DNA from: a virus
Direction: 5' to 3' (one strand)
DNA: 31,539 nt
IMG/VR virus record: IMGVR_UViG_3300025168_000375
Coordinates: 1-31,539 of that record
The number at the start of each line of letters is the position of its first letter. The stretch's first letter is position 1. This document shows positions 3,022 through 23,385 of the stretch, in pieces. A program made the translations under genes and the position numbers. Below the pieces are notes generated by a model. It did not search any database. It was not told where the DNA came from and was given only the letters and a program-made list of their open reading frames with translations.

Positions 3022-4428
3022 CTAATAATATTCTCGTAGTCTGCGTGGGTAATTATCTTGCAGATCATCGTCAGATTCTAAACCAATAAATCCACCCTGT
3101 CGATAACGCATTAATGCTTGCGTTGTCGAGTCCACCAAATCGTCGTGATCTCCAAAAGGAAACGCGGCGCATTCTTCCACTAATTCGTCCGCCCATCTTG
3201 TGTCTGGAACGTACACCATTCCCGATTCTAACATCGGAGCAACGGCATTTACCCTAGCAATTTTGTCCTGACCTTTGCCCGGTGAATAATTCACTACTGG
3301 TATACCGGAATGTCGTAATTCGTCGGTGAGCGGCAGACCACTGGCTTTTGCTTCAACAATCACGGTGTCGGGATCCCAATATTGATACTGCTTGTAAGCT
3401 TCGCGTTTTAATTCTGGGAAGTCCCATCGTCCTTTTTTAACGTCGAGGAGGAGGAGAGCTGGTCGCGACGAGCCTTCATCAGGGTAAAATACGCACCACG
3501 TCGTAATCGCTGAAAAGTCAGATGTTTCTTTTTTCGTGTATGCCGTGTCATACGACTGGATAACGTACTGCATTTGCGGTACTTCTTCCTTGTCCCATTT
3601 TTTCCACCATTCTCTCTTCAGTATAGCACCTTCTTCAGAAGTTGGATTTTGCATCCACTGGGCTTCCCATTTGCTGACGGGAATGGACGCTTTTACTCCT
3701 TCTAATTCTTCCAACTTCCAATATTCGGGCCAAAGAGGTTTGTGACTATCAGGAAAAATAGCTGGGAATTCCACCACTTCCCATTGGTCTGCATGGTCTT
3801 CTACCTGTCTGCTGAGTAATCTTCCTGTTAAGTCCTTGGTCGACCATCGCGTCATCACAATGACAATAGCACCGCCCGGTTGTAATCTTTGTCGTGGTCC
3901 AGAAGAGTAGTAATCCCACGCATTGTCTAAAGCTGTTAATGAAAGCGCGTCTTGCTCTGAGTGAATATCATCCAACACCAATAAATCCGCACCACGTCCT
4001 GTTACCGCTCCGCCTATTCCTGAGTAGAACGCTTCTCCTCCGCCATTGGTTTCCCAACGACCAGCAGATTTTGAATCCGCTTTCAGTCGAACGCCCGGAA
4101 AAACTTTTTGATATTCGTCGGAGTCGATTAAGTCCCTTACTTTTCTACCGAAACGAAAGGCCAGTTCGGCGGTGTGCGTTATTTGCATGACCTTTAACTT
4201 AGGATTACGGCCCAAGATCCAAGAAGGGAAGAACGTTGACGCGAATTCAGACTTAGTATGACGAGGCGGCATGTTAACAATAAGGCGTTTAAGCTCTCCG
4301 CGGGCTACTCGTTCGAGTTTTTCAGCAAATATTTTGTGGTGCTCTCCTTCTACGAAATCTGGCCACATGTGTTTAACATAGCGAATGAAGTTATCGTACC
4401 CCTCTCGCTGAAGCGTCTTAGCGCCCAA
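3022..4428 (-). CDS. terL: Terminase large subunit (packaging ATPase/nuclease)
   Basis: This is the motor that cuts concatemeric DNA and pumps it through the portal. The N-terminal ATPase has a Walker A variant MPPRHTKS (residues 53-60), Walker B LLVLDD (149-154) and a VMTRW coupling motif (191-195). The C-terminal nuclease has SYDTAY (Asp294) and a DHDDLVDS acidic motif near the end. The only standard start before these motifs is TTG at 4428, but the same frame stays open to 4539 with protein-like sequence (IEQLADRYPDATKQLLEL). It is closed by a TAA at 4540-4542, two codons after an ATG at 4548. The true N-terminus is therefore probably longer, through a non-standard start, a mutated codon or an assembly error. 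Confidence 0.9.
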   Translation of the reverse strand: MGAKTLQREGYDNFIRYVKHMWPDFVEGEHHKIFAEKLERVARGELKRLIVNMPPRHTKSEFASTFFPSWILGRNPKLKVMQITHTAELAFRFGRKVRDLIDSDEYQKVFPGVRLKADSKSAGRWETNGGGEAFYSGIGGAVTGRGADLLVLDDIHSEQDALSLTALDNAWDYYSSGPRQRLQPGGAIVIVMTRWSTKDLTGRLLSRQVEDHADQWEVVEFPAIFPDSHKPLWPEYWKLEELEGVKASIPVSKWEAQWMQNPTSEEGAILKREWWKKWDKEEVPQMQYVIQSYDTAYTKKETSDFSAITTWCVFYPDEGSSRPALLLLDVKKGRWDFPELKREAYKQYQYWDPDTVIVEAKASGLPLTDELRHSGIPVVNYSPGKGQDKIARVNAVAPMLESGMVYVPDTRWADELVEECAAFPFGDHDDLVDSTTQALMRYRQGGFIGLESDDDLQDNYPRRLREYY

Positions 4429-4649: not shown

Positions 4650-4740
4650 CGCTTCGCTCGTAAGGGGGGATAGGGGTCATAGATTCAATGCAATGCAAAT
4701 AGTAACCCAGGTCTTTTAGGTATTTGTCATTACTTTCATT
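4650..4740. repeat. 34-bp perfect inverted repeat around a 56-nt loop
   Basis: The arm at 4650-4683 (core TAAGGGGGGATAGGGGTCAT) is the exact reverse complement of the DNA beginning at 4740 and running to 4773, where the second arm ends; the loop is 4684-4739. It lies just upstream of the first early promoter. It has no T-run, so it is not a simple terminator. The G-run arms and GCTTCGCTCG end could form a cruciform or a long RNA hairpin. Confidence 0.9.
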
Positions 4741-4813
4741 CTATGACCCCTATCCCCCCTTACGAGCGAAGCGCGAGCGAAGCGAGCCAAGGCGGACACA
4801 CGCGCGAAAGTAG

Positions 4814-4843
4814 TTGACAGTATGGGATATATGTGCCTATGTA
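4814..4843 (+). promoter_or_regulatory. Early promoter P1
   Basis: TTGACA at 4814-4819 is followed by the shared spacer motif TATGGGATA (4821-4829) and, 18 bases from the -35, a weak -10 TATGTA (4838-4843). It drives the small genes at 4909-5355. Confidence 0.6.
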
Positions 4844-5413: not shown

Positions 5414-5551
5414 CCAGGATCCCGCGGCAGTGATGAAGATAGAACAGACAAGCAAGCAACCCACTCACTCTCTTTAATTCTAAGTCAAGGTAGTTTTTCT
5501 ATTACGAAACTTCCACCTTGACTTAGAGAGAGTGAGTGGGTTGCTTGCTTG
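5414..5551 (+). repeat. Palindromic repeat unit A
   Basis: The unit begins with CCAGGATCC (5414) and then the family core AGAACAGACAAGCAAGCAA at 5441-5459. The core runs into a long hairpin: 5449-5473 pairs with 5527-5551, and 5480-5490 with 5516-5526, with a six-base bulge TTAATT on the left side and a 25-nt loop. The unit lies exactly between the terminator at 5365 and promoter P2. Confidence 0.9.
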
Positions 5552-5580
5552 GGCGAGCGCGAAGCGCGAGCCGATAACGA

Positions 5581-5609
5581 TTGACAGTATAAGACATTTA
5601 ATGTAATCT
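5581..5609 (+). promoter_or_regulatory. Early promoter P2
   Basis: TTGACA (5581-5586), 17 bases, then TAATCT (5604-5609). The spacer begins GTATAAGACAT, a divergent version of the TATGGGATA motif in the other early promoters. It drives the gene at 5640. Confidence 0.6.
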
Positions 5610-5639
5610 ATGTTAGTTAATAACTAATAGGAGAATGAT

Positions 5640-6200
5640 ATGGGAATGGATATATATGGAGAAAACCCGATAATAAAAGGGAAAGAACCAACACCACCAA
5701 GAGAAGGAAACAACTCATCTTTAGAAGAAGAATGGGCAGTTTATTGGGAGAAGCAGAGCGCTTACCAAAGTGAAAACAAAGGTGTTTACTTTAGGAATAA
5801 TGTTTGGTGGTGGCGTCCTCTTTGGGATTATGTTTGTCAAGCGTGTGATGATGTACTGACCGAAGAAGATTGCTCAAGTGGACACCATAACGACGGACAC
5901 CTAATCACGGAAGCACAATGCAAAGTGATTGCTGTGAGATTAAAAAAAGCATTAGCCGAAGGACATGTTAAAGAATACATGAACAGTCGTCAGACTTATC
6001 TTGATAATTTACCACTTGAAACTTGCAAGCATTGTGAGGGAAGCGGAGAGCGTGATGATAAATATGTTCAGGGAGAATGTAACGGATGCGAAGGAGTAGG
6101 CGAAGTTAAAAGCTACGATACTCATTATCCTTTCAGCGTTGAGAATGTTGAAGAGTTTTTGGGCTTCGTCAGCGAGAGTGGTGGGTTCAGAATTAACTAA
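5640..6200 (+). CDS. Phage early protein with DnaJ-type zinc finger
   Basis: This 186-aa protein starts MGMDIYGENP, a beginning I recognise from a group of uncharacterised phage proteins that also share the WWWRPLWDY stretch seen here (residues 56-64). Near residues 124-146 there are two CxxCxGxG modules (CKHCEGSG and CNGCEGVG), a DnaJ-like zinc finger. A further CxxC (residues 68-71) lies just after the Trp-rich stretch. AGGAG six to seven bases upstream favours the ATG at 5640. It forms its own transcription unit between promoter P2 and the terminator at 6215. Function is unknown. Confidence 0.85.
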   Translation: MGMDIYGENPIIKGKEPTPPREGNNSSLEEEWAVYWEKQSAYQSENKGVYFRNNVWWWRPLWDYVCQACDDVLTEEDCSSGHHNDGHLITEAQCKVIAVRLKKALAEGHVKEYMNSRQTYLDNLPLETCKHCEGSGERDDKYVQGECNGCEGVGEVKSYDTHYPFSVENVEEFLGFVSESGGFRIN

Positions 6201-6214
6201 TAGGAGGAACGAAG

Positions 6215-6243
6215 AAGGGGCGACGAAAGTTGCCCCTTTTTTT
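6215..6243 (+). terminator. Rho-independent terminator with GAAA loop
   Basis: Stem GGGGCGAC / GTTGCCCC (6217-6224 with 6229-6236, one G-T pair), GAAA tetraloop, then seven T. The segment TGCCCCTTTTTTTGTGCC is identical to that of the terminator at 6776. An AGGAGG with no following start codon sits at 6202-6207, which may be a relic of a lost gene. Confidence 0.92.
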
Positions 6244-6266
6244 GTGCCCATAGTCCCCGTAACCAT

Positions 6267-6358
6267 CAGGATCCGCCTGGGCTGGTCCGCAGGAAGAACA
6301 GACAAGCAAGCAAACCAAGGGCTTCGCCTTTAATCTTGGTTTGCTTGCTTGTCAAGGG
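6267..6358 (+). repeat. Palindromic repeat unit B
   Basis: CAGGATCC at 6267 is followed by GGTCCGCAGGA and the core AGAACAGACAAGCAAGCAA (6295-6313). A perfect 19-bp hairpin follows: 6301-6319 pairs with 6335-6353 around a 15-nt loop. The right flank TTGCTTGCTTGTCAAGGG (to 6358) is shared with unit C. It lies between the terminator at 6215 and promoter P3. Confidence 0.92.
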
Positions 6359-6380
6359 CCCGGGGCGCAAGTAGGAAAGA

Positions 6381-6409
6381 TTGACAAGCTATGGGATATG
6401 ACCTATAAT
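6381..6409 (+). promoter_or_regulatory. Early promoter P3 (consensus sigma70)
   Basis: TTGACA (6381-6386) and TATAAT (6404-6409) with exactly 17 bases between, the bacterial sigma70 consensus. The spacer contains TATGGGATAT, shifted two bases relative to P1. Confidence 0.9.
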
Positions 6410-6415
6410 ATAAGG

Positions 6416-6448
6416 GTAGTGAGGCAAAGTCCTTGCTAGCCTCACTAC
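6416..6448 (+). promoter_or_regulatory. 5'-end stem-loop of the P3 transcript
   Basis: A perfect 10-bp stem GTAGTGAGGC / GCCTCACTAC (6416-6425 with 6439-6448) with a 13-nt loop begins at about +1 of the P3 transcript. A hairpin at the extreme 5' end usually protects an mRNA from decay; a regulatory role is possible. Confidence 0.7.
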
Positions 6449-6477
6449 ACTTTTTAAATACACAATAGGAGAATAAT

Positions 6478-6759
6478 ATGAACTATCCAATCTGGAACAT
6501 AGTTACAAGTTGCATCTACAAAGCAAACAAATCATACGGAGTCAGAGAGACGGGAGAAGTGGAAGTTCGGATCGGCACGGGCCAGAACAACAGTTACGAG
6601 TTTGTCAAACACTACACCACACACCGCAAACTGGACGACGGATCAAGAGAGTACAGATTCTATGTCGATGGCAAATGCCTCAAGACTGCGACACTCAACA
6701 AAGGTACAATGACCGCAACAGTTATCAAAAATCAACTGGACTCAGCGCCAGTAACCTAA
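6478..6759 (+). CDS. 93-aa early protein, unknown
   Basis: The ATG at 6478 follows AGGAG by seven bases. The protein starts MNYPIWNIVTSCIYKANKSY and is rich in Lys, Arg, Thr and Tyr, with predicted beta character (SREYRFYVDGKCLKTATL). No domain or membrane helix is seen. It is a single-gene unit between the consensus promoter P3 with its 5' hairpin and the terminator at 6776, so strong early expression is likely. A competing frame of 164 codons over the same DNA was set aside because it has no ribosome site and runs through the terminator and repeat DNA. Confidence 0.8.
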   Translation: MNYPIWNIVTSCIYKANKSYGVRETGEVEVRIGTGQNNSYEFVKHYTTHRKLDDGSREYRFYVDGKCLKTATLNKGTMTATVIKNQLDSAPVT

Positions 6760-6775
6760 CACCCTCCTATGGTGG

Positions 6776-6810
6776 AAAAGGGGTAGTTCTTCGGAGCTGC
6801 CCCTTTTTTT
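6776..6810 (+). terminator. Rho-independent terminator with TTCG loop
   Basis: Stem GGGGTAGTTC / GAGCTGCCCC (6780-6789 with 6794-6803, two G-T pairs) closed by the very stable TTCG tetraloop, then seven T. The A-tract upstream could let it act in both directions. Confidence 0.92.
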
Positions 6811-6871
6811 GTGCCTCACCTATTGCTACGTTTCCATCACCCCTGGCTGCGGGCCGGGGCTGGAAAAAGAT

Positions 6872-6937
6872 AGAACAGACAAGCAAGCAACTTGGTCCTT
6901 CGGACGACGCTTCGCTAAGTTGCTTGCTTGTCAAGGG
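6872..6937 (+). repeat. Palindromic repeat unit C
   Basis: Core AGAACAGACAAGCAAGCAA at 6872-6890. The hairpin pairs 6878-6893 with 6917-6932 (16 bp), and a small GTCC-TTCG-GAC hairpin lies in the loop. The right flank to 6937 equals that of unit B. No promoter follows it; unit D begins directly after. Confidence 0.9.
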
Positions 6938-6951
6938 AAAAGGGGGCTGCC

Positions 6952-7027
6952 GGTCCGCAGGAAGAACAGACAAGCAAGCAACGGCCCCTGGGCTGCGGGG
7001 CTAATTAGACAGAAAAGACAAGCAAGC
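6952..7027 (+). repeat. Left half of repeat unit D, with a degenerate second core
   Basis: GGTCCGCAGGA plus core AGAACAGACAAGCAAGCAA (6963-6981) repeats 30 bases of unit B exactly. A second, partial core GACAAGCAAGC lies at 7017-7027. The matching right arm TGCTTGCTTGT is not here but at 7488-7498, beyond the nuclease gene and directly against promoter P4. The unit therefore looks split by roughly 460 bases. Confidence 0.8.
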
Positions 7028-7455
7028 TACCCTATCAATTGGTCTTTGGTCCTACCTCTTACGAGGATCACTAATTGTTTTTGGACCAAAGACCAATTGA
7101 TAGGGTCGAAGGCAAACAGACCTGGGACTTTTAGACCATGGTCGGCCAACTCCCGGACTTGCTCCGCTCCGTAGATGTGAAGCTGAGATTTTTTAGGGTT
7201 GCTCTCCAAGAGACGCTTGACCAAGATGAAAGCACAAGAGTTTTTACGCTCTTCATGATACGCGATCTGGTGCGGAGAGAGATTTACTTTGTTACTTTTA
7301 GTTACCTTCAGCTCAGTTGTAAAATAGATGCCGTCTTTAGTTGCACCTAGAACATCAGGAATTCCATGATTAACCCGCGACTCCAACCTTATCCACGAAA
7401 ACGCAGTTAGGTTTTTTCTGATCTGTTGCCAAAATAATTTTTCCGGTTGTGCCAC
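7027..7455 (-). CDS. Small PD-(D/E)XK nuclease
   Basis: This 142-aa protein has the catalytic layout of PD-(D/E)XK nucleases of the VRR-NUC or archaeal Holliday-junction-resolvase type: Glu25, Asp34 in GIPDVLG, Glu48 and Lys50 in ELK, and a QxxY-like motif at HQIAYHEE. It likely cuts DNA, perhaps branched replication intermediates, or acts as a free-standing homing-type nuclease. It is the only minus-strand gene inside the plus-strand early block, and sits between the separated arms of repeat unit D. The start is GTG at 7455, since an in-frame stop lies four codons upstream. A TATAAT eight bases before it suggests a leaderless message. The last residues come from the inverted repeat, so the C-terminus may be recent. 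Confidence 0.8.
   Translation of the reverse strand: MAQPEKLFWQQIRKNLTAFSWIRLESRVNHGIPDVLGATKDGIYFTTELKVTKSNKVNLSPHQIAYHEERKNSCAFILVKRLLESNPKKSQLHIYGAEQVRELADHGLKVPGLFAFDPINWSLVQKQLVILVRGRTKDQLIG
7029..7106. repeat. 24-bp perfect inverted repeat at the 3' end of the nuclease gene
   Basis: Positions 7029-7052 (ACCCTATCAATTGGTCTTTG plus four bases) are the exact reverse complement of 7083-7106, with a 30-nt loop. On the minus strand both arms lie inside the last codons of the nuclease gene, encoding DPINWSLV and TKDQLIG. In RNA it would form a long hairpin ending the transcript, without a clean T-run. Confidence 0.92.
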
Positions 7456-7463
7456 AGTAAAAT

Positions 7464-7469
7464 ATTATA
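7464..7469 (-). promoter_or_regulatory. Possible -10 of the nuclease gene
   Basis: A TATAAT on the minus strand ends eight bases before the GTG start, which would give an mRNA with almost no leader. No good -35 is seen. Confidence 0.4.
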
Positions 7470-7487
7470 CAGTAGAGAGTTAAATAA

Positions 7488-7519
7488 TGCTTGCTTGTAT
7501 GGGATATATAATGTAATGT
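7488..7519 (+). promoter_or_regulatory. Early promoter P4, fused to a repeat arm
   Basis: TTGCTT (7491-7496), spacer with TATGGGATAT, and TAATGT (7514-7519) 17 bases away. A TATAAT also lies at 7507-7512 but is too close to the -35. The -35 is built from TGCTTGCTTGT, the right arm of the palindromic repeat family. It drives the run of small genes from 7554. Confidence 0.6.
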
Positions 7520-9238: not shown

Positions 9239-9488
9239 GGATAAACTTCCCTGCTCTCCTTTACTGCATTTTACCTCTGACACAGAGGGCCTAATTGAAT
9301 GGACATGGCGTACGTCTCCTCCTGAAGCTGTCTACTGGAAAACCTACCGGGCTAAAAAAAGAGATCTGAGAATACTATCAAAAGTTTCCCCCCAACAACG
9401 CACGTTATTAATTGAAGAACTTTACAAAGACATTATTAATAACGAGTACCCTAAAAAACTTAAACAACCAAAGGTAAGAAGACTATGA
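9216..9488 (+). CDS. 90-aa basic early protein, unknown
   Basis: The start lies inside the end of the preceding gene, and ATAGGTGAA about nine bases upstream serves as the ribosome site. The product starts MKSQVLYKDKLPCSPLLHF, is rich in Trp and Tyr around residues 28-43, and ends strongly basic (KKLKQPKVRRL). DNA or RNA binding is possible from charge alone. Its stop overlaps the next start in ATGA. Confidence 0.7.
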   Translation: MKSQVLYKDKLPCSPLLHFTSDTEGLIEWTWRTSPPEAVYWKTYRAKKRDLRILSKVSPQQRTLLIEELYKDIINNEYPKKLKQPKVRRL

Positions 9489-9745
9489 TAAGAATGAAAG
9501 CAACATTAGACGAGGCACAGGCAACAGCAGTAGTGCAGATATTTAGAAGAAATCAACTACAGGACTTAATAGTATTTTTGAGGATCTATAGTATATCTAA
9601 AAAACACGCTTATAAATTATGTTTAGATTGTCCATTAGATAGCCATGCCAGGATCCAGGCGAAGCTGCTGGATGTTTCACCGACTTTAGTAGAGACAGAC
9701 AAGCAAGCAATAGAGTCTATTGTTTGGGAGGAGTACGATGACTGA
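9485..9745 (+). CDS. 86-aa early protein carrying an in-frame copy of the dispersed repeat
   Basis: The protein starts MIRMKATLDEAQATAVVQIF and looks alpha-helical, with no family recognised. Its unusual feature is that bases 9648-9710, encoding about residues 55-75 (core translated as ETDKQAI), contain the CCAGGATCC and ACAGACAAGCAAGCAA blocks of the intergenic palindrome family. Either the repeat was inserted into an existing gene without breaking the frame, or the gene end was assembled over it. The stop overlaps the next gene's start. Confidence 0.65.
   Translation: MIRMKATLDEAQATAVVQIFRRNQLQDLIVFLRIYSISKKHAYKLCLDCPLDSHARIQAKLLDVSPTLVETDKQAIESIVWEEYDD
9648..9710 (+). repeat. Repeat family copy E (coding, left half only)
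   Basis: CCAGGATCC at 9648 and AGACAGACAAGCAAGCAA ending at 9710 match the left half of units A and B in the same order. No right arm follows, so no large hairpin forms. Confidence 0.75.
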
Positions 9746-17740: not shown

Positions 17741-19525
17741 TCAATACCCTAACAAGGTGTATATCTTTATGTCGTCGGTCTTGCCCTTGACTTTAATAGG
17801 GGGTAACACGGATAACGTGTGCGTGGTTTTCTTGCGGGTAGAGTCTCCTATTAATATAGGTTCTCCCACTTCTTTGGTACTGGACTCAAGGCGAGCCGCT
17901 AAATTTACACTGTCCCCAATGCAAGAGTAATCGAATCGAGTGTCGCTTCCTACGTTACCTACCGTTGCATAGCCTGAGTTGATTCCTACGCCAATTTTAA
18001 TGAACTCATCAATGCCCTGTTCTTTTAACTGCTCGTTGGCCAAGGTCATGTTTTCGATGATCTGTTTACCTGCGTTGATAGCAGCGTCCTCGTGGCTGTG
18101 TAGGTCCAAGGGCGCGTTAAACACCGCCATCATGGCATCGCCAATAAACTTATCCACCATGCCACCGTATTTTTGAACGGCTTCCACTTGTTGCGTGAGC
18201 ACAATGTTAATAATTTTTGTGACTTCCGTGGGGGTAAGTCGCTCTGACATAGCCGTAAAGCCCCTGACGTCTGTGAATAAGTACGTGCAGTACCGCTTCT
18301 CTCCTCCCAATTTAAGTAAAGAGGGGTCTTCCTGCAAACGTTTGATTTGACGAGGATCCAGGTAGTGCTCAAATTGCTTCTTTATCTGTTGGCGAAGGAG
18401 CGATTGTTCTCTAAAATTAAGCCAAAACTGTTCCCCAGATACAATTAGCAGGGCTATTCCGCTATAGGTAGTATCTATTAATAAGGACTTTTTCACTACA
18501 AGATACCACTCCAACCCTCCTGTCAGTACAAGAAGACCTCCAACCCCTAGTGCCATGTACGTATACGTCCATTTACGTCCAATGAAAAGAACCAATGCAC
18601 AGACAGTTAGTAATATAAGTAATTCGTACACCAACCTATCGGGGGGAATCTGTGGGCTATTGGGTAAAAGCAAGCTTTCTGCTAGGGCTGCTTGTATGTA
18701 ATGGGGATTTAATAGACCGGAGGGCGTGGCTAATTGCGGCATTACACCCGCAGCCGTCACTCCAACGAACACAAATTTACCCTCTACTTGAGGGTCTTGT
18801 AACGTAGTCTTAGGAGTATCGACCCAAGAGATCCATTTCCTGCCGTATTCATCCGTAGGAATAACCCCCAACGCCGGTATTCGTACCGCTTGTATCCCGC
18901 TTTCAAATGTTTTTATCTGGTACGTTCCTTCCCCCGTTAACGCCTTTAATACTTGCGTAGCAAAAGAAGCCACCCAACCATCAGGCGTTTGCACAATAAG
19001 AGGGATCCTTCTAACTAAGTTATCCACATCAGTTGGAGCCGACACAATTCCTTGATAAGCAGCTTTTTCTAGCTGGCTTACGTTTGGCAAGTACCCTAGT
19101 AGTGTAATTGTACGCACAGGATTATCCCCAAGGATGACTGTGCCATCTGTCGAGGGAAAGATTCTGTTCTCGTATTCAGGTATAGCCAGTACATTAGTAC
19201 CCTGCTGAAGGCTCGCAGCAAACGCATCATCCCCACCAAAGCGATCCGCTTGAGGGAACATAATTCCCCAACCCACTCCCAATGCTCCACGTTCGATTAG
19301 GTCGAGCTGTATCTCAGCTAAACGTTTCCTAGGAAAAGGCCATCCTCCTTCCTCACTAATATCATTCTCAGTGATATCCAGTATTACAAAGTGCCCACTA
19401 GGAGTTTGTTCTTGTGCAAGTGCATCAAAGGTTTTAAGCCTAAGTACCTCCAGCGCACTCCAATCTAATATAAGTGGCAGTGATAATGCTACAGTAGTAA
19501 GTGCCCCTATTAACCACTTGTTCAT
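17741..19525 (-). CDS. CHASE2-domain adenylate cyclase
   Basis: The 594-aa product has an N-terminal membrane helix (3-20), then a periplasmic CHASE2 sensor (about 30-290, with HFVILDITE, GGWPFPRKRLA and RFGGDDAFAASL), two to three membrane helices (300-365), and a class III cyclase domain (about 410-594). Metal-binding Asp419 (FTDVRGFT) and Asp463 (IGDAMMAVF), Lys459 and Asp532 (the ATP-selecting pair), and Asn541 and Arg545 for the transition state are all present, so it should make cAMP. Its ATGA start overlaps the upstream curlin-like gene. FecR-type proteins next to CHASE2 cyclases are, as I recall, also found in bacteria, pointing to a host-derived pair. No frame damage is seen. Confidence 0.9.
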   Translation of the reverse strand: MNKWLIGALTTVALSLPLILDWSALEVLRLKTFDALAQEQTPSGHFVILDITENDISEEGGWPFPRKRLAEIQLDLIERGALGVGWGIMFPQADRFGGDDAFAASLQQGTNVLAIPEYENRIFPSTDGTVILGDNPVRTITLLGYLPNVSQLEKAAYQGIVSAPTDVDNLVRRIPLIVQTPDGWVASFATQVLKALTGEGTYQIKTFESGIQAVRIPALGVIPTDEYGRKWISWVDTPKTTLQDPQVEGKFVFVGVTAAGVMPQLATPSGLLNPHYIQAALAESLLLPNSPQIPPDRLVYELLILLTVCALVLFIGRKWTYTYMALGVGGLLVLTGGLEWYLVVKKSLLIDTTYSGIALLIVSGEQFWLNFREQSLLRQQIKKQFEHYLDPRQIKRLQEDPSLLKLGGEKRYCTYLFTDVRGFTAMSERLTPTEVTKIINIVLTQQVEAVQKYGGMVDKFIGDAMMAVFNAPLDLHSHEDAAINAGKQIIENMTLANEQLKEQGIDEFIKIGVGINSGYATVGNVGSDTRFDYSCIGDSVNLAARLESSTKEVGEPILIGDSTRKKTTHTLSVLPPIKVKGKTDDIKIYTLLGY

Positions 19526-20322
19526 TGTTGAGTGATGCTAATAGTCTTAGTACAGTTACTAACACAGTTAAAAGTCACAGCGTAGTTTTGGTTTGTGGAC
19601 CCCTTTTGTATTACAGTAACATCATAGTTATTTGTATAGAATTTCATATTTGAAGTGTGGGCTCCATTTCCTTGTTGCGTTAAACTAACATCATTATCAT
19701 CCCCACCGCTATAAAAGAATATGTCTGCGTCTTTATTCCCTGAGCCTTTTTGAATTAATCTAGTGGAGTTATTGTTTCCCCCTGAGTAATTTAAAACGTA
19801 AGCATTATGGTTGCCTGTGCCTTCTTGGGTAATCCAAACATCAGAATCATCTGAAAAGGCGTAGATCTTAGCGTAGTAATCATCTCCTAGCTGCTCTATT
19901 TTATATACGTTGTCGTCTCCAGAACCTAGTATCCACGCTTGGTTATCATCTCCATTTTGTATAATAGTAGAAACATTATCACTTTCATCCATATCTATAA
20001 CTGCGTAATTATCATTTCCATCTACTGTGGTTATCCAACTTTGTCCCGTATGATTAGACCAAACAGACTGTGAATAAACAACATTAGAGTTTCCCGTTAC
20101 CGTTGAAGTAATAGTAGCGTTATTACAATTATGATCCCCAACTAAAGAGTTATCAAAACTTCCTAGCCCACAATAAACACCAGTAGTGTTACTGTTACCA
20201 ACTTGCTTAATAGTTATAGTTGAGCCGCTTCCTTTTGTTTGTAGTGTTATTAGGTTATCACCTGCAAATAAACTACAACTAAGGAGACTGAAAAATAATA
20301 ATAGTGTTGTCGCCCGCACCAT
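19522..20322 (-). CDS. Curlin-repeat (CsgA/CsgB-like) secreted amyloid protein 1
   Basis: The 266-aa product has a signal peptide (cleavage after about residue 20, SLFA-GDN) and then about ten strand-loop-strand repeats of roughly 22 residues. Units such as WITQEGTGNHNAYVLNY and RLIQKGSGNKDADIFFY carry the curlin pattern of Gln-x-Gly-x-x-Asn. It ends with SITQQ. Curlin repeats fold into cross-beta fibres once outside the cell. It is Asp/Asn-rich and more acidic than E. coli CsgA. GGAGGT eight bases before ATG 20322 fixes the start, so it overlaps the FecR gene by 44 bases. It could be a fibre subunit or a nucleator. Confidence 0.85.
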   Translation of the reverse strand: MVRATTLLLFFSLLSCSLFAGDNLITLQTKGSGSTITIKQVGNSNTTGVYCGLGSFDNSLVGDHNCNNATITSTVTGNSNVVYSQSVWSNHTGQSWITTVDGNDNYAVIDMDESDNVSTIIQNGDDNQAWILGSGDDNVYKIEQLGDDYYAKIYAFSDDSDVWITQEGTGNHNAYVLNYSGGNNNSTRLIQKGSGNKDADIFFYSGGDDNDVSLTQQGNGAHTSNMKFYTNNYDVTVIQKGSTNQNYAVTFNCVSNCTKTISITQQ

Positions 20323-21364
20323 TTATTTCTACCTCCATTATTACCCCTGCTGAATTTATATTTACATAAGAAGCAGCATCTTTATCTATTCCTATGTCAA
20401 ATGTATTACTACCTTGGTGGACTAAATACACATGTTGGCCCTCTACAAAAGAGTAGGTTTGGTACACGGGATCGTACCCGGGGGTAATGCCTTTTAGTTC
20501 TACCCCGTTTAAAGTGCCCCCAGAAGTATTTTTCTTTTTTGATCCTGCTTCTACTATAGCTAATAAATCTACGAGAAAATCAAAATTTAATAAATCTATA
20601 TCTAATCTGTTTATTTCTTCCTCTTCTTCTAAAAAATCTTTGTCTAAATCAGGAGCATCTTCAAAGAAATCTTTGTCTACTCCATCTTTAGAAGTGCCTT
20701 CTTGTTCCGCTATGGCTTCTTGTACTTCGGGGGGTTTGTTAACAATAAGCATATTATCAATTAAACCAAGCGTTAAGTTTCCTAACACAACTGCTTTTGT
20801 GGGCTTTGATTCAAAGGTAGATACCATAGTAGCTTGAAAAGGTCGGTTTAATACTTCAGTACCGGACCAAGTTGTTACTGTAATCTCCCCTGAAGTTTTC
20901 CCTGTTTCATCAGGCAATAATATTATTAAACTTCTGCCAAGCTCGTCAACTGTTGTGGTGAAATCTGTCCCTCTAATCGCGATGGTGGCTGAGGGGGTGC
21001 GTATAGAAATGTTTTCTTTATTAATTTTACCTAAAGCACCAGTAATAAAACGAGCAGTACCCGATGCCATGTTAAGAGCCAGTTTACTTTTAGAGGGATC
21101 TGGGTCAAAGATGTAGTTATCTATAACTACTTTAGAATGTTCCGTAAGTTTTAATACAGAAGAGTCCAGAAACTCAATTGCCATACGGCCGTTACCGGTC
21201 CGCACATCATCATAAGAAAAGATATTAAGGTCAAGTTCAGCAAGTAATTTATCTCCCCCTGTTTGTCTAAGGACTTCTCCGTTACCACGGAACTCAGAGA
21301 TCTCTCCGATCTCATTTGCGTTAACTGTACCCGTAAATAATAAAGCTAACAGCCAGAAGCGCAT
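20279..21364 (-). CDS. FecR-domain periplasmic protein
   Basis: The 361-aa product has a signal peptide (cleavage near TVNA-NEIG) and a FecR fold at about residues 20-160: GEISEFRGNGEVLRQ, SYDDVRTGNGRMAIEFLDSS, TPSATIAIRGTDF. FecR domains sense or relay signals in the periplasm. Here there is no membrane anchor or sigma-factor partner; the neighbouring CHASE2 cyclase is the likely partner. An acidic linker (about 225-265, FLEEEEEI) leads to a C-terminal part with YLVHQGSNTFDIGID and GAGDNTIIIFQSP, which resembles curlin strands. It overlaps both neighbouring curlin-like genes, so production is probably coupled. Confidence 0.85.
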   Translation of the reverse strand: MRFWLLALLFTGTVNANEIGEISEFRGNGEVLRQTGGDKLLAELDLNIFSYDDVRTGNGRMAIEFLDSSVLKLTEHSKVVIDNYIFDPDPSKSKLALNMASGTARFITGALGKINKENISIRTPSATIAIRGTDFTTTVDELGRSLIILLPDETGKTSGEITVTTWSGTEVLNRPFQATMVSTFESKPTKAVVLGNLTLGLIDNMLIVNKPPEVQEAIAEQEGTSKDGVDKDFFEDAPDLDKDFLEEEEEINRLDIDLLNFDFLVDLLAIVEAGSKKKNTSGGTLNGVELKGITPGYDPVYQTYSFVEGQHVYLVHQGSNTFDIGIDKDAASYVNINSAGVIMEVEINGAGDNTIIIFQSP

Positions 21365-22047
21365 TGGTCAATATTGACTGAGCTTCCTGAGCCACCGCTG
21401 CTTTGTAGTAATAGATTAGCTACATTAGTGCTGGTAGTATCCGTCTGGTCTATATCAATGTCCATTGAGCTTCCTGTTAGATTAACAGTAATTGCGTGGT
21501 CATTTGAGCCTGACTGAAGTGTATCTATGTCATTAGAACTTCCAGAAACGGTCCAATTATTAATACAACCTATGACTTCACATCTAACATTTAAGTTATT
21601 AGAAGCTCCTGTAATTGAAAAGTCTTGATTACCGCCCGTAGCTGTAGCACTAGAACCCTGGGTAAATATTAAGTCGTTTCCGTCCCCACCAGAAGAAGCC
21701 CAATCAAAATCTGACCCTGCTACATCTCCTGTAGCTCCAACTGCGAAAGTAGCTGTAGCACTAGAACCCGTATTACTGTAAGTCCAACTGGAGCTATTAC
21801 CTTGTAAAATGCTAGCTATAAGACTGTTAGTAGAGCCTACTTGATCAATGTCTACCGTCATAGTAGTACCTGATAAAACTGCTCTAGCTGCGTTAGTACC
21901 TACTTTATTAGTTGCTCCAATTTGATCAATTGTTAAAGTTAGCCCTGTGCCCGTCTGTGTAATATAAATATCATTATTACCAGCGAGCATACTCCCTGAA
22001 ACAATTAAGATAAGAGCACTAATTAGTGTCTTTTTTAACCACCTCAT
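21346..22047 (-). CDS. Curlin-repeat-like secreted amyloid protein 2
   Basis: The 233-aa product has a signal peptide (cleavage near SMLA-GNN). The repeats are Ser/Thr/Asn/Gly-rich, with DIYITQTGTGLTLTIDQIGA, TVDIDQVGSTNSLIASILQG and VNLTGSSMDIDIDQTDTTST as the clearest curlin-type units. They are more irregular than in protein 1. The end has three Cys in its last region (one is CASGC), unusual for curlins. Three ATG codons follow GGAGG in a row; the third, at 22047, has the correct six-base spacing and was chosen. It overlaps csgG by 29-35 bases and the FecR gene by 19. Confidence 0.75.
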   Translation of the reverse strand: MRWLKKTLISALILIVSGSMLAGNNDIYITQTGTGLTLTIDQIGATNKVGTNAARAVLSGTTMTVDIDQVGSTNSLIASILQGNSSSWTYSNTGSSATATFAVGATGDVAGSDFDWASSGGDGNDLIFTQGSSATATGGNQDFSITGASNNLNVRCEVIGCINNWTVSGSSNDIDTLQSGSNDHAITVNLTGSSMDIDIDQTDTTSTNVANLLLQSSGGSGSSVNIDQCASGC

Positions 22048-22870
22048 CATCATCCTCCGGAGTTAGTGTATCATAATTAAAGTCCCAGAGTTGTTTTTCC
22101 AATCCTGCCATCACTAAACCGTATACTGCGGCTTCTATAGAAGATCTTACCGCATAACTTGCAGCCTCATTTTTTGTAAATCCGCTTTCCATTTCTATAA
22201 GTTCTGTGCCCATTTCATAGAAACGAAATAAGTCTGAGCCGGTCCCTGTGGATAAAATGGTTTTAGTGGTAGTTACATTTAGTAGTACCTCTCCTGTTTG
22301 TACCAGTATAGCTCTAAGCGATACAGTCACTATGTCTTCTCGGTACTGGTTTTTGGCCCCCACCCCAAGTGCTCTGGCTCCAGTACCTCCTGTTCTTATA
22401 TTAGAGTCGTACGCTACAATACCTCCCTCTAAAATCATGCCCGCGTACAACAAAGGCTTTAACATATTGCCTTCTTCTCCATCATACGTCTTACGGGTGT
22501 TTACTATAAGTTGACGCTCTCTGCTTAAATTATCCAGCCCGTCGCGCTCTACAACGACAAACCATGTACCTCTACCAGCATCTCGTAAAGCTTCGGTTAA
22601 TATAGCTAAACCTCCTTGAGTAACTGCGGTACTAAAGCTTGCAATGTTATCTTTTGACTTACGCGCCCCAGTTAGATCTGGAAAACTGTACACCGCAACA
22701 ACTGCTTGGTTATTAGGAGAAGGTAAATTTAATAGTTGGTGTGCGGAACTGGGTACAATTTTAGGGCCTTCTGGACAGATTAATAAATCCACACAGTTTG
22801 TTTGTTCTTGAAAAGCTAGATTAGCACAGCCATTGAACAAAAGAAAAAAGATAGGGGTTAACCATTTCAT
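22019..22870 (-). CDS. csgG: CsgG-like outer-membrane secretion pore (lipoprotein)
   Basis: The 283-aa product has a lipoprotein signal ending FNGC (Cys15) and matches CsgG nearly throughout. FSTAVTQGGLAILTEALRDA corresponds to the E. coli FSTAVPQ region, and TGARALGVGAKNQYREDIVT and TTTKTILSTGTGSDLFRFYE to later conserved blocks. CsgG forms a nine-subunit channel that exports unfolded curlins across the outer membrane. The constriction Phe (F56 of E. coli) is kept in IASFSTAV, but the Tyr and Asn beside it are replaced by Asp/Asn-type and Ser residues, with one residue inserted. The start overlaps the csgF stop (ATGA). No CsgE is seen nearby. Confidence 0.92.
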   Translation of the reverse strand: MKWLTPIFFLLFNGCANLAFQEQTNCVDLLICPEGPKIVPSSAHQLLNLPSPNNQAVVAVYSFPDLTGARKSKDNIASFSTAVTQGGLAILTEALRDAGRGTWFVVVERDGLDNLSRERQLIVNTRKTYDGEEGNMLKPLLYAGMILEGGIVAYDSNIRTGGTGARALGVGAKNQYREDIVTVSLRAILVQTGEVLLNVTTTKTILSTGTGSDLFRFYEMGTELIEMESGFTKNEAASYAVRSSIEAAVYGLVMAGLEKQLWDFNYDTLTPEDDDEVVKKDTN

Positions 22871-23385
22871 CCGTCACAATCTACCCAACAGCCCCCGAAG
22901 CTACCAACTGGAATAACAATCTCTGTTGTTGAAACCAGCACTCCATCAAACCATTCTTCTATTATTAAAGTGATTGTATCCCCATTATTTATCCACTTTA
23001 AGATATTACCTTCTAAACTTATCTCTCCTGCTATAGGATTTTCTGAAGTAGGAATACCAGAATAATTAAACAGCGACTCAGAAATATCTTTAGCCAAGGT
23101 AGAATAAATACGCGATTCTAAGTTACGTATAAACTTAGAAAGTACTGTATTATCCGCTTCGCGCTCTGCTTCTTCTAAGGCATCCTGTATATTTTCAGCT
23201 ATTTTTTCAGCTCGTGTTCTTTCTTGCTCATCAATAGTTAAGTAATGAGCAGACTGATTTATACCACTAAAGCTAGGGTTGCCAAATTTATATACGAGTT
23301 CATCTGCACTTAAAGACCCTACTAATACTAAAACAAAAACTATAGCTAGTATCATTACTACTTCTTTAGTCTTTCCTTTGATCAT
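22867..23385 (-). CDS. csgF: CsgF-like partner of CsgG
   Basis: The 172-aa product has a signal peptide (cleavage near SLSA-DEL). Directly after it YKFGNPSFSGINQSAHYLT matches the CsgF N-terminus (E. coli FQFRNPNFGGNPNNG), the part known to enter the CsgG pore and form its second constriction. A charged helix follows, then a beta-rich C-terminal domain ending with two Cys (GGCWVDCDG). In curli systems CsgF carries the nucleator to the cell surface. It lies immediately upstream of csgG, and its own start overlaps the one-helix membrane protein gene by 20 bases. Confidence 0.88.
   Translation of the reverse strand: MIKGKTKEVVMILAIVFVLVLVGSLSADELVYKFGNPSFSGINQSAHYLTIDEQERTRAEKIAENIQDALEEAEREADNTVLSKFIRNLESRIYSTLAKDISESLFNYSGIPTSENPIAGEISLEGNILKWINNGDTITLIIEEWFDGVLVSTTEIVIPVGSFGGCWVDCDG

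Follow-up and report, generated by a model that had tools for sequence, protein, structure and literature searches.

What are the palindromic units that recur among the small early genes of this phage, and do they mark borders at which genes are exchanged? The window, the whole stretch of DNA analysed, is a 31.5-kb IMG/VR virus contig (IMGVR_UViG_3300025168_000375, 31,539 nt). Judged by sequence, its source is a podovirus of the pelagiphage HTVC023P type, with a TerL 57–65% identical to those of 023Pt_psg01, HTVC027P, DSL-LC04 and HTVC023P and an SU10-type portal. HTVC023P-type phages are common across the ocean, and a T8SS/curli cluster is already known from uncultured pelagiphages of this type (PMC9599517). 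The window carries a leftward curli/T8SS-like cluster (17741–23385) encoding a CHASE2 adenylate cyclase and, by inspection, FecR-like, curlin-like and CsgG-like proteins. The words palindrome, hairpin, terminator and promoter do not occur in the HTVC023P-type genome paper, and we found no earlier description of the palindrome units in the literature.

Cores and palindromes in the window

The unit region spans the interval from the leftward TerL gene (3022–4428), its left limit, to a small leftward PD-(D/E)XK-like nuclease gene at the end of the array (7027–7455, minus strand). A 19-base core, AGAACAGACAAGCAAGCAA, occurs exactly four times in the window, always on the plus strand (5441–5459, 6295–6313, 6872–6890 and 6963–6981). 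Searching for its last 16 bases with up to three mismatches returned 12 window matches against 0.33 expected, and at most three in any of 100 shuffled windows. This excess excludes chance for the core repeats and, with exact coordinates found for four palindromes (A–D), bears out the recurrent core and palindromes reported in the preliminary description.

All further parts of the series lie on the plus strand. Palindrome 0 (4650–4773; 46-nt arms at 4650–4695 and 4728–4773, 91% complementary), outside the coordinates first described, is by position the fifth and first-placed member, and in relatives palindromes with GACAAGCTAGC ends occupy its place. After it comes a promoter-like sequence beginning TTGACAGTATGGGATAT (4814–4843), shared with the site at 5581 and with a weak −10 box. 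Unit A follows an intrinsic terminator with an orthologue in the related locus L008 (5365–5402; 11-bp stem, 10-nt loop, T7). Its core at 5441 leads into palindrome A (5449–5551; 37-nt arms, 89% complementary), in which a perfect 25-bp outer stem encloses a conserved inner CTAAGTCAAGG..CCTTGACTTAG; a promoter-like TTGACA-17-TAATCT (5581–5609) then precedes the small gene g0 (MGMDIYG, 5640–6200). Unit B repeats the arrangement, with a terminator (6215–6244), the core at 6295, palindrome B (6301–6353; perfect 19-bp stem), a TTGACA-17-TATAAT promoter matching the consensus at 12 of 12 positions with TATGGGA in its spacer (6381–6409), and the small gene MNYPIW (6478–6759). Unit C has a terminator (6776–6811), the core at 6872 and palindrome C (6878–6932; perfect 16-bp stem). 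Beyond it lie the half-unit core at 6963, a variant core AGAAAAGACAAGCAAGC (7011–7027), palindrome D (7029–7106; perfect 24-bp stem) and a promoter-like TTGCTT-17-TAATGT (7491–7519), where right-arm-like sequence is present and the left arm absent. A GC-rich insert type, GGGCGAGCGAAGCGAGCC, lies between palindrome and promoter at 4766–4778 and 5559–5571, and also in L008, L036 and L067.

The units are less uniform than first described. The terminators before B and C do have 18 bases in common, TGCCCCTTTTTTTGTGCC. A, B and C share the exact core as claimed, but the copy at 6963 has no hairpin and D is preceded by the variant. The right flank TTGCTTGCTTGTCAAGGG is confined to B and C (6341–6358 and 6920–6937), and the upstream flank CAGGATCC to A and B, being absent from C and D. 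The order terminator, palindrome, promoter, gene describes A and B but not C and D, next to which lies the convergent nuclease gene. Because a consensus promoter and terminator scan of the region as a whole did not exceed shuffles, we assessed individual sites on their position and conservation.

The last 16 bases of the core recur exactly at 9695–9710 within ORF 9485–9745, where 19 of the 24 consensus positions in relatives are matched and a conserved TLVETDKQAIES is encoded. Insertion of a unit into this gene is rejected, because core-less homologues are equally long and the motif encodes that conserved sequence. The copy, in a gene and without a palindrome unit, is either a coincidence or the sequence that gave rise to the repeat.

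Distribution among phages and cells

The core belongs to a family of related phage loci. Pattern scans of viral contigs, keeping loci with at least two core copies, recovered it from 38 other IMG/VR loci with 2–15 copies each, mostly in the form TTTAGATAGAAAAGACAAGCAAGC. These loci come from many different metagenomes, which excludes a single misassembly and with it the assembly artefact raised in the preliminary description. Core copies sit essentially on one strand per contig, in the orientation of the small genes, and in records of 36–49 kb (G003, G004 and G005) they are confined to one few-kb stretch; both the single orientation and the one-slot localisation are direct observations. Cellular genomes, scanned because the host had been proposed earlier as a place to look, held no such family: a scan of 84,980 returned nine isolated single matches, a number that an 18-mer with one degenerate position would reach by chance, and a host origin of the core is rejected.

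The core was not found in the cultured relatives examined, and 14–20 kb of HTVC023P, HTVC027P, 023Pt_psg01 and DSL-LC04 contained zero to one long hairpin. Near the nuclease gene of 023Pt_psg01 lie a few CAAGCAAGC copies, without a palindrome there, and comparison of a relative's array with phage records gave no DNA similarity. More distant relatives (for example L113, L117/L129 and L130–L134), retrieved through gene 9485–9745 and the conserved interior of palindrome A, carry palindromes at corresponding positions, with (CAAG)n at the base. The array is optional, since L108, which is close in TerL and nuclease and carries the nuclease-adjacent promoter, has a slot without units and with a different gene set. 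The same slot of L108 (900–2870) holds other repeats, AAGGTCTCGCTTCGCTCGG, in several copies before and between genes.

Unit anatomy across the family

Across the family a unit reads, from left to right: stop codon, intrinsic terminator with T6–T7, GC-rich spacer, core, palindrome and, usually, a sigma70-type promoter. The spacer of 20–40 bases is GC-rich and includes words like CCAGG, CTGGG and GGATCC. Then come TTTAGATAGAAA and, at the start of the left arm, AGACAAGCAAGC, the core lying within that arm; a variable stem and loop follow, and the right arm mostly ends GCTTGCTTGTCT. The promoter reads TTGACA or TTGCTT, 17, TATAAT, frequently with TATGGGA in the spacer, and in L061, L062, L067 and L129–L131 a likely −35 box TTGCTT lies inside the right arm. 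The motif TATGGGA-N5-9-TAWNNT occurs 44 times on the gene strand versus once on the other, 30 of these within 260 nt after a unit. Units end ahead of the promoter, 80–170 nt before start codons, and arrays adjoining the nuclease gene run to as many as seven units without a promoter. The loops at L059 1515, L062 4463, L066 1642 and L078 1891 contain an inner inverted repeat, GTTGTGAT..ATCACAAC or GTTGTGTT..AACACAAC.

The palindromes are not terminators: they lack a consistent U-tract, and a separate T-run terminator (T6 or longer, within 140 nt upstream) lies ahead of 72 of 97 unit groups. DnaA-box-like sequences, TTATCCACA/TTGTCCACA, come right after the last units in L001, L059, L081 and L095, and those at the array end may represent an origin of replication.

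Two-sided change in the stems

Each palindrome has conserved ends around a hypervariable stem whose arms change together, and the stem covariance suggested earlier as a check proved strong. Across 81 distinct hairpins we counted 1,627 Watson–Crick stem pairs; with hairpins of two tandem half-units excluded, 1,502 Watson–Crick pairs stand beside 3 G-T and 2 A-C. Inner arms differ even among the units of a single genome, pairing fully with their own partner in 36 of 61 cases and with other units in 0.7%. Palindrome D overlaps the coding end of nuclease ORF 7027–7455 (minus strand), its right arm being the coding arm. That arm and the opposite one co-change across seven phages, with 10 pairs changed on both sides and none on one side only; two-sided cells number 23 versus 7.1 in shuffles, with zero one-sided changes. 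In palindrome A, 12 of 24 pairs differ between the window and L008, all on both sides, around an almost identical loop.

Two very close contigs, L062 and L063 (99.8% identical), have 11 differences in 5.4 kb, four of which are two swapped pairs in one stem. Because the changed stem of L062 is identical to that of the neighbouring unit, it suggests conversion between units. A palindrome interior also occurs in opposite orientations, L129 7313–7357 being an exact inversion relative to L124 4136–4180 and likewise to L132. Frequent loop inversion is rejected, with one clear case (two rows) in 62 similar hairpin pairs.

The near absence of G-T pairs and the inversion of one palindrome between relatives suggest, with moderate confidence, that the palindromes are kept up at the DNA level. 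In a control on the same contigs with mismatches allowed, terminators gave 15 G-T versus 6 A-C and palindromes 35 versus 47, a contrast that is suggestive only, the terminator set being small and the tolerance also letting in chance extension. We infer that the palindromes stay perfect because one arm is copied from the other within a folded strand or cruciform, because a DNA hairpin is under selection, or for both reasons.

Cassette turnover between relatives

Between TerL and the nuclease gene, relatives carry the same small genes (g0, g30, g72 and others) variously combined, with units between them. The window reads A, g0, B; L008 has the same palindrome A, then g30 in place of g0, then B and the MNYPIW gene; and L067 has g0 and g30 in two consecutive cassettes. 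Loss of one cassette between units would be the simplest account of this difference. Genes between corresponding, conserved palindromes differ among relatives, and units are themselves duplicated and deleted. Comparison of the flanks, with cassettes gained, lost and replaced, upholds the earlier proposal of modular cassettes. Cores contain 63 intergenic indel breakpoints versus 24 expected by permutation, counts that, like those over relatives, are not independent and that hypervariable stems alone may inflate by ending alignments at units. The palindrome of L072 measures 151 nt versus 28 nt in the same place of L070 and L071, as expected from a deletion inside the palindrome.

Weighing the explanations

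We favour, at a probability of roughly 0.6, a reading in which the units delimit early-gene cassettes that are insulated and exchangeable, making them a distinct variant that resembles the PeSLs of other phages. In a cassette, one or a few small genes would stand between a promoter and a terminator. With the terminator–palindrome–promoter block between genes, any small gene could join the array and still be started and stopped separately, and the repeated core and hairpin-forming arms would be points at which recombination joins, duplicates or removes cassettes and half-units. Recombination at the units would then be the cause of the shuffling, and the palindromes may also block stray transcription ahead of each promoter, an unproven role. 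Against cassette borders weigh the single clear inversion and the two of five window borders (C and D) that a promoter does not immediately follow. Hardest to explain is the long perfect palindrome beside the terminator, which could be a recombination substrate, an insulator or a template-switching by-product carried with the cassette.

An unlikely alternative is that the units work as RNA, as RNase III-type processing sites, stabilisers or bidirectional terminators, with gene shuffling incidental. Long stems whose structure is preserved by two-sided changes would suit such a role, as would the A-rich left and T-rich right flanks of some units, AGAAAAGAC..GTCTTTTC, which resemble bidirectional terminators. 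However, most unit groups already have a separate intrinsic terminator in front; the palindromes precede the local promoter, which leaves them outside the local transcript; and none of A–D has a U-tract on the plus strand. Three G-T pairs in about 1,500, and a palindrome D without one-sided changes, are also unlike typical RNA stems. A known RNA family is rejected, all hairpin matches to Rfam falling below threshold. Somewhat more doubtful is the proposal that the units are protein-binding sites (operators, stoperators or replication iterons), with a phage or host protein on an asymmetric 24-mer, palindromes pairing two sites, and the array by the nuclease gene perhaps a replication origin. 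It would account for the single orientation, the occurrence of half-units without a palindrome and the conservation of TTTAGATAGAAA though this is often outside the hairpin, and the density of DnaA-box-like sequences near units is 2.8 times that elsewhere. Those boxes are few (17), however, the window clade shows little conservation in the 12 bases to the left of the core, and binding leaves both the complementarity of the variable inner stems and their wholesale sequence change unexplained.

About as improbable as protein binding is a more specific mechanism in which a hairpin- or cruciform-processing enzyme reads the units as folded DNA recombination sites, acting on structure and asymmetric core and driving cassette exchange, palindrome inversion and perfect-stem renewal. 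Such an enzyme might be the array-linked nuclease, which appears PD-(D/E)XK-like by its invariant residues E25, D34, E48 and K50. Its similarity to the solved nucleases 4qbo and 4qbn is weak (E 0.08 and 0.24) and its gene also occurs in relatives without units, so its link to the units is a possibility only. Least probable are selfish mobile palindromes of REP/RPE/MITE-like kind, spreading by themselves and lying between genes by chance. Many copies, tandem half-units and a copy number that varies among relatives would fit them, but the units keep to one slot and one orientation, the positions and interiors of A and D persist over deep divergence, cellular copies are not above chance, and the copy in gene 9485–9745 is ancestral coding sequence with no insertion. 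Exchangeable cassettes with palindromic borders remain our preferred reading.

If correct, such a cassette system would explain the turnover of the many small unknown genes of HTVC023P-type phages and would mark the sites of newly acquired, possibly anti-host genes. Changes on both arms of a stem, with almost no G-U step, would offer a natural test of palindrome upkeep at the DNA level.

Comparison with known systems

Several known systems share parts of this design. Integron attC cassettes have conserved ends, a variable self-complementary interior, one site per cassette and one orientation, all of which recur here. In contrast to attC sites, the stems here are perfect, without attC-type bulges, and the cassettes carry promoters and terminators. 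A search for tyrosine recombinases (PF00589) across five records, a 59-kb one among them, gave no match, and an integron-like integrase in the element is rejected within those five. Morons of lambdoid phages lie inserted between other genes, each a small gene that brings its own promoter and terminator. The same equipment per small gene is found here, but morons have no shared palindromic border element or one-slot array. Unlike REP/RPE elements, which disperse over genomes, host chromosomes or coding genes included, the units occupy one few-kb slot per record.

The closest comparison, as the preliminary description proposed, is with PeSLs (promoter-early stem-loops), reportedly elements of T4-like myoviruses. 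There, strong host-type early promoters and stem-loops are said to be packaged at the borders of small genes in a hyperplastic region, and genes to be gained, lost and exchanged at such borders; exchange between neighbouring copies reportedly yields mini-circles that are encapsidated. A predicted strong sigma70-type promoter likewise stands by the stem-loop here, as at 6381–6409 and in the motif enriched after units. Gene strings, breakpoints and the slot of L108 reveal shuffling among close relatives in a hyperplastic region, to which the units would have contributed causally. Architecture and modularity therefore agree with PeSLs, but membership does not follow: the sequence is unrelated, the stem-loop is a long palindrome apart from the terminator rather than the terminator itself, its hypervariable stem changes on both sides, and the genomes are podoviral, with an SU10-type portal and HTVC023P-type TerL, not those of T4-like myoviruses. 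The PeSL papers of Arbiol et al. 2010 and Comeau et al. 2014 are among those cited in PMC4503421.

In cluster K mycobacteriophages, SAS/ESAS repeats lie upstream of small genes, all in one orientation, and include a 17-bp inverted repeat and a variable spacer; ESAS arms are conserved in sequence and imperfect, with spacers of 4–13 bp, located at start codons (PMC3203893). Co-orientation ahead of small genes, the inverted repeat and the variable spacer are shared with our units. Here, however, conservation is limited to the ends of the arms, the inner stem is perfectly paired but hypervariable, the unit precedes the promoter, and the inverted repeat does not adjoin a start codon with a conserved 13-bp start-associated sequence. 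As a description of how the units would work, the PeSL analogy is sound, and PeSL-like modularity would then have arisen outside T4-like phages, with unrelated sequence.
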